Shown piece by piece: positions 1 to 54,599 of a DNA stretch of 64,000 bases. The notes under the pieces are model-generated. The model worked only from the letters and a program-made list of their open reading frames with translations, was not told the origin of the DNA and did no database searches. Both the position numbers and the translations under genes were made by a program. Origin of the DNA: Draconibacterium orientale (GTDB lineage Bacteria > Bacteroidota > Bacteroidia > Bacteroidales > Prolixibacteraceae); the NCBI RefSeq assembly GCF_000626635.1, contig NZ_CP007451.1, forward strand, positions 4,570,501 to 4,634,500. Direction: 5' to 3'. Within the stretch, counting starts at the first letter, position 1; every line of letters starts with the position of its first letter.

Positions 1-90
1 TCGGCAAGTTTAAAAGTAAACAGCACCAATCGCCAGTTTATTTCCTATAATGGCGACTTGGTTCCGATTGAAGAAAAAGAGAAAAAGTAG
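1..90 (+). CDS. C-terminal end of an unidentified protein (partial)
   Basis: An open frame enters from the left edge and ends at a TAG at 88-90, giving 29 residues that finish in a charged IEEKEKK tail. Too little is present to name the family. It is convergent with sfsA, and a hairpin terminator lies just downstream. Calling it the end of a real gene rests on the frame being open from base 1 and on the well-placed terminator. Confidence 0.5.
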   Translation, partial: SASLKVNSTNRQFISYNGDLVPIEEKEKK

Positions 91-50468: not shown

Positions 50469-51386
50469 TTAACTAATCTGCTCCAGGTCGTACGGTGTTT
50501 CCTGGTAAACATAGTAATTCAGCCAGTTGGAGAACAACAGGTTTGCCGTTGATTTCCATCGCATAACCGGTGTTTTCGACGGATCGTTATCCGGATAGTA
50601 ATTTCTTGGAATTTCGATGGGCAAATTTTTTGCTTTATCGCGTTTGTACTCTCCATCCAGTGTGTGGCGCGAGTATTCAGAATGTCCGGTAATAAACAAC
50701 TGCCGGCCGTTTTTGGCTTTTACGATTGACACTCCGGCATCATCAGAACAGGAAATAATCTGCAATTCATCCACTTTTTCGATATCTTCTTTTCGAATCT
50801 CGGTATGGCGAGAGTGAGGAATAAAAAAAGCATCGTCAAAACCTCTGAAAATAGGCAATGTATTGTCGGACAAACGATGCTCGAAAACGCCAAACATTTT
50901 TTTGTCGAGCGGGTATTTGGGCACCTTGTAATAATGAAACAAAGCCGCCTGTGCCGCCCAGCAAATAAACAACGACGAAGTTACGTGATGTTCGGCCCAG
51001 TTGAGAATCTCTTTCATTTCATCCCAATAGGTTACTTCCTCAAAATCGAGCTGTTCAACCGGCGCTCCGGTAATAATCATGCCATCGTACTTTTTGTTTT
51101 TCAGCTCATCAAAAGTGTCGTAAAACTCACTCATGTGCTCGCTTGGTGTATTCTTTGGCGTGTGTCCCTTTATTTTCAGAAAATCAATTTCAATTTGTAG
51201 CGGTGAATTGGATAACAGACGAAGCAGATCTGTTTCGGTAGATATTTTCAGCGGCATCAGGTTTAAGATCACAATTTTTAGCGGTCTGATATCCTGGTGC
51301 GATGCCCGCGAAGTATCCATTACAAAAATATTCTCCTCGCGAAGAATTTCAATTGCCGGTAATTTGTCGTTTATATTTAATGGCAT
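50469..51386 (-). CDS. metA: Homoserine O-acyltransferase MetA, predicted acetyl-CoA specific
   Basis: Activates homoserine in methionine synthesis. The 305-aa protein starts MPLNINDKLPAIEILREENI. Catalytic residues fall at the numbers known from E. coli MetA: Cys142 (FICWAAQAAL), His235 and Glu237 (FITGHSEYSR). Residue 111, in GAPVEQLDFEEV, is Glu. In this family Glu111 gives acetyl-CoA and Gly111 gives succinyl-CoA specificity, so the product should be O-acetylhomoserine, which fits the neighbouring metY. The ATG at 51419 would add 11 residues and shift this numbering, so 51386 is chosen. A -7 element (51456-51463) may give it its own promoter within the operon. Confidence 0.95.
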   Translation of the reverse strand: MPLNINDKLPAIEILREENIFVMDTSRASHQDIRPLKIVILNLMPLKISTETDLLRLLSNSPLQIEIDFLKIKGHTPKNTPSEHMSEFYDTFDELKNKKYDGMIITGAPVEQLDFEEVTYWDEMKEILNWAEHHVTSSLFICWAAQAALFHYYKVPKYPLDKKMFGVFEHRLSDNTLPIFRGFDDAFFIPHSRHTEIRKEDIEKVDELQIISCSDDAGVSIVKAKNGRQLFITGHSEYSRHTLDGEYKRDKAKNLPIEIPRNYYPDNDPSKTPVMRWKSTANLLFSNWLNYYVYQETPYDLEQIS

Positions 51387-51455
51387 TTTATATTCCTTTT
51401 TTCGTGACGAGAAGACCAATTTTCAAATCTCGTCGCTCCATTTTTTCAGTTCGTG

Positions 51456-51532: not shown

Positions 51533-52861
<1,329 letters not shown>

Positions 52862-53056: not shown

Positions 53057-54370
53057 CTAGAAAAAAGCCTTATAAATTTCACGTACACTCTTTTCTTTGT
53101 CGGATTCCTGCACCACCAAATAGCTTACCAGGTCGGATGCGCCGGAGCCGCTAAGTATTACATTTATTTTGTTGTTGGCCACCGCGGCAAATATCTTGGC
53201 TGACACACCGTAGGCCTGTTGCATTCCGTGCCCAACAATACCTATAAGCGCCACATCGTTCACCACTTTGATATCAGTAACAGCCGAAAAGCCCAATTTG
53301 TGCACGAGTTTTAGTGCTTTTGCACCATTTTCTTTGCTTAAAATAAAATTGATGGAAGTTTGCGAGGTAATCACCGACTTAATGTTTAGTCCGGCATCGT
53401 TTAACTGGTTGGTAACTTTTGCCAGGATACCCGGTTTTAAACCAACGCCCGGCCCGTCGAGCTTCAGCAGCGAAATATCGTCGGTGCAGGCTACACTTTT
53501 TACAATCTGCTCTTCAATATATGTCTCGGTGTTGATAACGGTTTGCACTTCGCCATCGGGCGTATCCGGACTTAGTACCTGGATCGGGATATGCGCGTGT
53601 TCCAGCGGTTCTACCGTTCGCGGGTGAAACGAGTAGTGTTCGAAATAGGCCAGTTCACTGGCTTCGGAATACGTAAGGCGTTTAATGATTTCAGGATTTT
53701 CGATAATGGCAGGCTTGGCCCGCTGAAAATCGTTATCGAGGCCCCAAAGTTTTAGTGTATCGATACCCAATTCTTTGGTAAGAAAAGCGGCGGTATAATC
53801 AGCTGCCGTTTTACCGGTTCGTGCCAGTTTATTGTTCTCGTTGATCCCGTATGTTCCGGGAATCAGGAAAACACCGGGCTCCTGCTTATTGAGCTTAAAT
53901 GTATCGACCGAAAGGAAAGTTGCATTTCCGAAATCGGACGACACCTGCAAGTCAATGTCTTCGGGAAGAATAATACTTGCTTCATTCCAAAGCGACGAAA
54001 GAATCTCAACCGACAATTTTTCGGCAAAACTCAGTACCTGGTCTTTTAAAGCCTGCGAATAATCGCCGATAAGTCCAATTCCTTTTAATAATCCAACCAA
54101 TTGTTTGGCCAAATCAGAATACACTTCTGATGGTTGCTCATCAACGGTACTGATATAAAATCCATAGATCTCGTTCAACAATTCCTCTTCATCCAGTTCT
54201 TGCAGAAATACCTGTTGCAGGTTAAACTGAACAAGATCGAGCAATTGCGGAATAGGCGAAACCACTACATAATTGCGGCTATTGCAACCTGTTAACCAAG
54301 CTTTTAAATTGTGCAATGCTATTTGGTTGCCAATATGGCTTCCACCAAATCGAATAACATTATCCGACAT
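53057..54370 (-). CDS. Aspartokinase-like protein with degenerate catalytic motifs and two ACT domains
   Basis: A 437-aa protein with the aspartokinase fold and a C-terminal pair of ACT domains (about residues 293-437; PGVGLKPGILAKVTNQLND and IGIVGHGMQQAYGVSAKIF). The family catalytic signatures are altered. KFGGTS is RFGGSH (residues 7-12), so the ATP-binding Lys is Arg. TTLGRGGSDYTAA is NKLARTGKTAADYTAA (around 180-195). WTDVDGVYTADP is WGLDNDFQRAKP (209-220). Kinase activity is therefore doubtful, while the ligand-binding ACT part looks intact. It is the first gene before metY and metA, behind a Met-rich leader peptide. It may be a regulatory subunit or sensor for methionine synthesis (inference). 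Confidence 0.9.
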   Translation of the reverse strand: MSDNVIRFGGSHIGNQIALHNLKAWLTGCNSRNYVVVSPIPQLLDLVQFNLQQVFLQELDEEELLNEIYGFYISTVDEQPSEVYSDLAKQLVGLLKGIGLIGDYSQALKDQVLSFAEKLSVEILSSLWNEASIILPEDIDLQVSSDFGNATFLSVDTFKLNKQEPGVFLIPGTYGINENNKLARTGKTAADYTAAFLTKELGIDTLKLWGLDNDFQRAKPAIIENPEIIKRLTYSEASELAYFEHYSFHPRTVEPLEHAHIPIQVLSPDTPDGEVQTVINTETYIEEQIVKSVACTDDISLLKLDGPGVGLKPGILAKVTNQLNDAGLNIKSVITSQTSINFILSKENGAKALKLVHKLGFSAVTDIKVVNDVALIGIVGHGMQQAYGVSAKIFAAVANNKINVILSGSGASDLVSYLVVQESDKEKSVREIYKAFF

Positions 54371-54422
54371 AAAAATATTTTTTTTGAAATTTTTGTTTGC
54401 TTAATAAACACTTGTACGGAAT

Positions 54423-54456
54423 GCCTTCAAACAACGAATAACCATCGAATGAAGGC
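54423..54456 (-). promoter_or_regulatory. Leader hairpin overlapping the end of the Met-rich leader peptide
   Basis: GCCTTCA at 54423-54429 pairs with TGAAGGC at 54450-54456. The outer arm touches the last base of the leader stop codon, so a ribosome that reaches the stop would block it and a ribosome stalled on the Met codons would not. No clean T run follows, so whether it is a terminator or antiterminator is unclear. Confidence 0.5.
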
Positions 54457-54548
54457 TATCGCATAGACATATACATAGACGACATAAACATTGCTTCGCA
54501 ACGGATTGCTGCGCTGGAAGAAGTAGTATTTCTTTTGTCAATGTTCAT
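54456..54548 (-). CDS. Methionine-rich leader peptide (candidate attenuator)
   Basis: ATG at 54548 opens a 30-codon ORF with TAG at 54456-54458. Residues 19-30 read AMFMSSMYMSMR: five Met codons among the last 11 codons, in addition to the start. It is the first ATG after the predicted promoter and ends about 85 bases before the aspartokinase-like gene, ahead of metY and metA. This is the layout of a ribosome-mediated attenuator sensing Met-tRNA charging. Confidence 0.65.
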   Translation of the reverse strand: MNIDKRNTTSSSAAIRCEAMFMSSMYMSMR

Positions 54549-54569
54549 TCTTGCCGAATTTGTTTAGCG

Positions 54570-54599
54570 CAAATATAAATTGATTTTTGAAAAACGCAA
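54570..54599 (-). promoter_or_regulatory. Promoter of the methionine operon
   Basis: Minus strand TTG (54597-54599), 19 bases, TATATTTG (54570-54577), a full match to the Bacteroidota consensus. The leader would be about 195 bases and includes the Met-rich ORF. Confidence 0.65.

Follow-up and report, generated by a model that had tools for sequence, protein, structure and literature searches.

The trp, his, thr and leu leaders of the enterobacteria are ribosome-mediated transcription attenuators of amino-acid operons. The locus analyzed here, in a 64,000-nt stretch of Draconibacterium orientale DNA (NZ_CP007451.1:4,570,501-4,634,500; hereafter the window), is like them in having a short leader ORF, a run of end-product codons, a hairpin next to it and a biosynthetic operon after it. 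It is unlike them in that the codons are Met codons, there is no clear antiterminator and mostly no U-tract, and in relatives the leader is combined with a SAM-I riboswitch. From its name, the Bacteroid-trp RNA (RF01692) is presumably linked to trp genes. PMC2864571 names it in a table among candidate cis-regulatory RNAs of Bacteroidetes; it differs from the present element in that Rfam scans of the window and of leader loci did not match it. In Streptomyces lividans a metL leader was proposed before metNIQ (PMC8079986). metL resembles the present leader in its Met codons (in metL also Cys codons) near the peptide end and in hairpins without a typical Rho-independent terminator; it differs in coming from one strain, preceding a transport operon and having a leaderless start, and the likeness is one of description. 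The leader peptides of actinobacterial cys operons, for which Rho has been suggested, also carry a run of sulfur amino acid codons near the stop and no obvious terminator, but the codons are Cys rather than Met, no conserved hairpin is described and the phylum is another (PMC1262725). The SAM-II metA leader of Sinorhizobium meliloti is alike in placing a SAM riboswitch and a further downstream control before a methionine gene; it differs in that the riboswitch is SAM-II and in having a terminator and a second start in frame, and its abstract names no leader-peptide sensing of Met (PMC9373788). In Flavobacterium, strong clues for leader peptides before amino-acid operons are given in PMC9723704, whose lists might include a Met case. 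No earlier description of a methionine leader peptide in Bacteroidota was recognised in a search mostly of non-subscription literature, including PMC7366714 and PMC6230763.

The element is read on the minus strand (Table 1). A sequence-only reading had placed a promoter ahead of a Met-rich leader ORF, a hairpin arm touching the leader stop codon, and an aspartokinase-like gene, metY and metA downstream, and each of these was located. The promoter consists of TTG and TATATTTG elements, and it is called Bacteroidota-type by what we take to be the -7/-33 consensus of the phylum; TATATTTG was also recognised by eye in all 30 best-scoring loci of the family. The inverted repeat next to the promoter is visible, with changes, in related loci (by eye), and it is a possible protein-binding site for a regulator. 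In some relatives both arms of the repeat are altered, as in locus L023 (TTATTT...AAATAA). The genes of the operon were assigned from Pfam domains and NCBIfam models above cut-off, and the aspartokinase-like gene matched no NCBIfam aspartokinase model at its cut-off. The same genome has a bifunctional aspartokinase-homoserine dehydrogenase gene, and no Thr leader was seen in the 801 bases read ahead of it.

Table 1. Positions of the leader element, its operon and the second leader locus (window numbering unless L202 is given)
Feature	Position	Strand	Description and basis
Imperfect inverted repeat TTTATCT-N11-AGATAA	54602..54625	minus	Just 5' of promoter; conserved DNA
Promoter	54570..54599	minus	TTG 54597-54599 and TATATTTG 54570-54577; Bacteroidota-type
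Leader ORF, 30 codons, MNIDKRNTTSSSAAIRCEAMFMSSMYMSMR-TAG	54456..54548	minus	ORF listing and conservation
Helix H1	54484..54548	minus	Leader start 54539-54548 pairs with stretch up to Met -7, 54484-54493
Small hairpin H1a	54497..54513	minus	Within leader ORF; fold; top segment pair of pairing scan, 35/45 clusters
Met codon run	54462..54491	minus	Codons -9, -7, -4, -2, 0 relative to last Met: 54489-91, 54483-85, 54474-76, 54468-70, 54462-64
Hairpin H2, GCCUUC-N22-GAAGGC with inner stem	54423..54456	minus	Fold, covariation; without U-tract
Aspartokinase-like gene	53057..54370	minus	First of operon; Pfam AA_kinase and ACT domains above cut-off
metY, O-acetylhomoserine sulfhydrylase	51533..52834	minus	TIGR01326 above cut-off
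metA, homoserine O-acetyltransferase type (acetyl-type)	50469..51419	minus	NF047918 above cut-off
SAM-I aptamer, own genome, second locus	L202:204-314		RF00162 match
Second leader MKKLHYKLFFTSYLHGANMCMHQRF	L202:326-403		Behind SAM-I; MCM near end (HGANMCM)

The leader has five Met among its final 11 codons, and the earlier view that this is far above chance was borne out (binomial P 2.7e-6). The window has 707 ORFs of 20-60 codons; no other of them has five late Met, or even four, and two have three. In 45 window ORFs of at least 200 aa, none of 16672 11-codon windows has five Met. When the aspartokinase was used as a query against 101 genomes, 98 matched, and in the best 30 of these loci a leader with a Met-rich end was present at a similar position in all 30 (29 besides the window). 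Of 18 further stretches, 14 same-family loci and one partial same-genus locus have a leader, which is Thr/Ile-rich in L046 and has fewer Met in L040 and L041; of the other three, L044 comes from another family and has its leader behind SAM-I, L045 has SAM-I and showed no leader, and L048 lacks upstream sequence. Thirty-six leaders were used to build a covariance model, which at E<=0.1 matched 118 of the 140 family genomes and at E<=1e-6 matched 108, counts that include the model's own members. There was one strong match per genome, with extra weak matches in some; the runner-up in the window's own genome had an E of only 1.1. Seven of 72 model hits (L180, L181, L182, L184, L186, L187, L188) were discarded as false, having no leader or gene context. 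An order-wide search of 295 genomes with strict filters at E<=0.02 matched 22 genomes, four in the same family and 18 in others; ten of these 18 were judged to be chance matches and eight were accepted as leaders. The first set of 45 leaders, the remaining 65 model hits and the eight from other families form a set of 118, with close duplicates retained; L044 was not part of it, and L045 and L048 were unusable.

Codons were numbered from the last Met as codon 0, an anchor that makes the constancy of the last Met partly one of construction. Met is found at codon -2 in 115 of the 118 leaders, at -4 in 74, at -7 in 92 and at -9 in 23. In the 11 codons upstream of the last Met there are 345 ATG triplets in frame versus 19 and 3 in the other two frames (22 out of frame). 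The leader frame is open across 17 codons in 117 leaders, the other two frames in 47 and 75. Confinement of the ATGs to a conserved open frame looks like selection for Met at the coding level, not for a bare RNA motif. Other positions are also constrained: Ser or Pro at codon -3 (77/118) and -6 (81/118), Ser at -5 (65/118), Arg (95/118) or Gln (12/118) after the last Met, and the stop TAG at codon +2 (107/118). Codon -12 is Cys in 55 of the 118 leaders, and the switch might conceivably take a Cys input there. A leader-peptide attenuator has a short ORF behind the promoter of the operon and end-product codons clustered near a hairpin; judged from sequence, the first appears to be present here in the conserved open frame with its frame-specific ATGs, and the second is seen in Met -2 of nearly all leaders (115/118) ahead of an aspartokinase-metY-metA operon.

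The conserved 5' arm of hairpin H2 (GCCUUC) starts on the G of the leader TAG at 54456, 8 nt past the A of the last Met codon, and codon +3 is CCT in 109 of 118 leaders. In 11 leaders the stop lies elsewhere than at codon +2; the distance from last Met to hairpin is kept nonetheless, partly by construction. In an alignment of 36 leaders (A1), H2 pairing is maintained in 91.5% of cells and 37 cells are changed on both sides. None of 500 shuffles matched the pairing or the double-change value, and 24 of 500 matched a third measure, further pair types. Sliding the partner strand cuts pairing to 29-57%. Most double changes fall within the inner stem; among the outer pairs in A1, six in number, four are invariant and one has a single double change. 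Elsewhere, outer arms are swapped for other complementary arms in L040, L093, L096, L103, L136 and L159. In L093, L096, L040 and the second leader of the D. orientale genome the stem differs in sequence and still starts at +8; outside the family it sometimes begins a few nt later (L092, L103). Minimum-energy folds extend the stem upstream to +3..+7 in 98 of 118 leaders. For the 60 nt following last Met+5, the mean z is -3.8 versus single-letter shuffles in 22 cluster representatives, the weakest being L091 (-0.4), and RNAalifold recovers H2 on a long alignment (A2). H2 is mostly not followed by a U-tract: there are at most three T in the 8 nt past the folded stem in 96 of 118 leaders and 4 to 6 in 22, and no terminator-like match was found at H2 in the window. 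H2 was rejected as an ordinary terminator on account of the missing U-tract.

A scan of 378 pairs of 16-nt segments, from about -96 to +93 around the last Met, compared own with cross-clade pairing in 49 cluster representatives and yielded three elements: H1a, H1 and H2. In a duplex test H1 was supported in 15 of 22 clusters (P 0.0016; control region 2/16), clusters that are very unequal, one containing 83 of the 118 leaders. H1 is weaker with SAM-I present, in 3 of 7 clusters versus 12 of 15 others. It was not recovered by RNAalifold on A2, and its support comes from the duplex tests. In the predicted pairing H1 could mask the leader start, and Met at -7 may be retained for this pairing. No clear antiterminator partner competing with H2 was found in the scan, which extended to about +93; a weak pair between -72..-57 and 24..39 (t=-3.0, 27/42) reaches the 3' side of H2 and could be due to chance. 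An AGUGUU motif lies at 54407-54412 of the window, and AGCGUU is found in many same-genus leaders and a few others (L030, L031, L038), 12-15 nt past the hairpin; no consistent pairing partner of this motif was evident by eye.

The sequence-only reading set a Met leader against the usual SAM riboswitch. The window itself has no Rfam match, to SAM-I or any other family; in addition, no SAM match was found in L014, L001, L006, L019 or L030, and the members of the window's genus that were checked have no riboswitch at this operon. The contrast needs changing for other families, in which SAM-I mostly lies directly before the leader, and for the window's own genome, in which SAM-I precedes a second leader. 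RF00162 matched in L043, L044, L046, L090-L094, L097, L103, L156, L183, L185 and L202. Rfam scans of the window and the leader loci gave only SAM and one tRNA at gathering score, with no T-box or other family. Within the family, SAM-I together with a leader is found in L043, L046, L156, L183 and L185. In L046, L183 and L185 a Thr/Ile/Asn-rich leader replaces the Met-rich one, behind SAM-I and ahead of aspartokinase-metY-metA.

In the other families SAM-I is directly upstream of seven of the eight leaders, the exception being L096, and the next ORF after SAM-I is the leader peptide in these tandem loci. The downstream gene is metY in L090, L092, L094 and L103, metX in L091, aspartokinase in L093 and L097, and metH in L096, names that we assume from the likeness of the first residues. 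Six of the eight leaders end alike, [ND]F[TI]MP-x-x-P-M-[CS]-M; L093 (EISMCMR) and L096 (KPMCMC) have only the last residues in common with them. Over all leaders the genes downstream (aspartokinase, metY, metX, metH, HcyBio) serve the synthesis of methionine or homocysteine. Genus g11, represented by three genomes, has a Thr/Ile-rich leader with one late Met (MITMTTITRTSISML) behind SAM-I and before aspartokinase-metY-metA, which is expected if the codons report charged tRNA.

The spacing behind SAM-I was surveyed in the best-scoring 30 SAM-I loci of the order, three of which repeat leader loci already counted. A Met-rich short ORF lies 45-57 nt past the GGTGC motif in 15 of the 30, and the gene itself in four; seven control windows gave 0-3 Met-rich ORFs. 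In other orders none of 29 usable SAM-I loci had a Met-rich ORF, in a sample of which 22 of 30 came from one family. Genes starting 44-52 nt past the GGTGC are metH-like by their first residues (L220, L229, L233, L241) or HcyBio (L196, 44 nt). The little room left there for a terminator suggests that SAM-I acts by translational control in Bacteroidales. SAM should repress metH, and the same spacing to the leader suggests that SAM blocks initiation at whichever ORF follows.

The second leader of the D. orientale genome has its own stem, which starts at 394 of L202; the A of the last Met is at 386, 8 bases earlier. It is followed by an HcyBio-family gene (PF01837, homocysteine synthesis) and then a NIL/ferredoxin gene. 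Among 17 leaders of this class measured in relatives, 11 have a stem at +8, GCGG or GCGC, as judged by eye; when the longest stem was chosen automatically, +8 came out in only 3 of 17, other stems being placed differently or unclear. No leader was found at L209 and L210. HGAN precedes MCM in this class, and its H, N and C residues are conserved with synonymous codon variation.

Together, the comparisons give a coding-type constraint on a short frame, a Met run and a covarying H2 at near-constant distance past the last Met. On sequence evidence the element is probably a cis-acting attenuator of aspartokinase-metY-metA that works through a methionine leader peptide: a ribosome stalled there would keep H2 open. 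If charged Met-tRNA is scarce, the ribosome would stall once the last Met codon, or the Met codon before it, enters the A site. With the usual ribosome footprint, the last Met codon in the A site would leave the six bases of the arm just covered. A ribosome stalled at the last Met codon would cover the H2 5' arm, nt +8 to +13; H2 could then not form and the operon would be read. If Met is plentiful, the ribosome would finish at the UAG and leave, H2 would form and expression would drop. Where SAM-I lies directly upstream, SAM would probably block leader initiation and H2 would also form, so that tandem loci would have two inputs, SAM and Met-tRNA, and one output. At this operon, where the checked members of the window's genus have no riboswitch, H1 may limit re-initiation by masking the leader start. 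Two points argue that formation of H2 means OFF: high SAM, by leaving the leader untranslated, is expected to switch the operon off, and it is from the two most constant Met codons that a stalled ribosome would reach or cover H2. H2 might lower expression by termination in spite of the missing U-tract, by Rho-dependent termination (the D. orientale genome has a rho gene) or through RNA stability.

Of the attenuator proposed in the earlier reading, the conservation, the in-frame Met and the covariation stood: in orthologous upstream regions the short ORF, the clustered ATGs and the stem are all kept. Its classical form was not borne out, for want of a clear antiterminator in the scan and, mostly, of a U-tract, and for the same two reasons the attenuator leaves the output step of H2 unexplained. 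In addition, ribosomes stalled at Met -4, -7 or -9 would by the same footprint not reach H2, and the early Met codons are accounted for only where H1 uses them. The conserved non-Met residues also exceed what simple tRNA sensing needs, and an arrest-peptide effect may contribute to the switch. A broader scheme, which we put forward tentatively and rate a little short of an even chance, is that Bacteroidales SAM-I has no terminator of its own and uses the leader start as its expression platform, while the leader ribosome works a minimal hairpin switch with no antiterminator and no U-tract, about +8 nt from the last Met. SAM and Met-tRNA would then be read in series, and some lineages including the window's genus would have kept the leader without a riboswitch at this operon.

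The non-Met residues could also point to a nascent-peptide sensor, which we consider unlikely: an arrest peptide (F-x-M-P-x-M-P-M-C-M-R or HGANMCM) would stall on Met, Cys, SAM or peptide geometry and not on empty Met-tRNA. It would explain why such residues are kept despite synonymous codon change, as for Ser -5 (TCC, TCT, TCG, TCA), Arg +1 (mostly CGC and CGA) and the H, N and C of the second class, and why NF[TI]MP-like ends are common to six of the eight other-family leaders. However, codon -1, between the last two Met, is highly variable (S 27, C 27, I 24, F 23, R 4, A 4 and others in the 118 leaders), the number and place of the upstream Met vary, and the Thr/Ile-rich replacements in genus g11 favor codon sensing. 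An arrest peptide would also be hard to fit to the tandem loci, where a stall at high Met or SAM would put the ribosome on H2 but the SAM-I block would remove it.

The early Met codons, which are often present, and the overlap of the H2 5' arm with the stop codon would find a use in a logic of the Trp type, which we regard as distinctly improbable. In it H2 is antiterminator-like and means ON; a stall at an early Met lets H2 form, and a ribosome terminating at the stop masks the 5' arm and switches the operon off. Such a logic is opposed by the lack of a structure competing with H2 downstream in the range scanned and by the most constant Met codons being those nearest H2, and it would conflict with SAM-I gating if SAM blocks leader translation. 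It is more doubtful still that the leader and hairpin mask the start of the first gene and thereby control its translation. Inspection by eye and the minimum-energy fold of the window both favored a pairing between the 5' end and the aspartokinase start (H0), but this pairing failed the cross-clade test (9/17 clusters, P 0.46), the spacing from leader stop to gene varies from about 80 to over 200 nt, and the identity of the gene differs. The almost invariant GCCUUC/GAAGGC arms in the family would suit a structured RNA with no coding role, its AUG triplets being mere sequence motifs, but this is very improbable with ATGs held to one frame (345, 19, 3), that frame open in 117 of 118 leaders and intervening codons that change freely.

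If the attenuator driven by a methionine leader peptide is correct, the Bacteroidota would gain methionine-specific leader-peptide control, for which no prior description was found. It would also provide a tandem arrangement in which a riboswitch governs translation of a leader peptide and not of a gene. The logic can be tested directly with the genome's second copy and with the naturally occurring series of SAM-I only, SAM-I plus leader and leader only. The hairpin without a U-tract poses the question of how such attenuation works in Bacteroidota.
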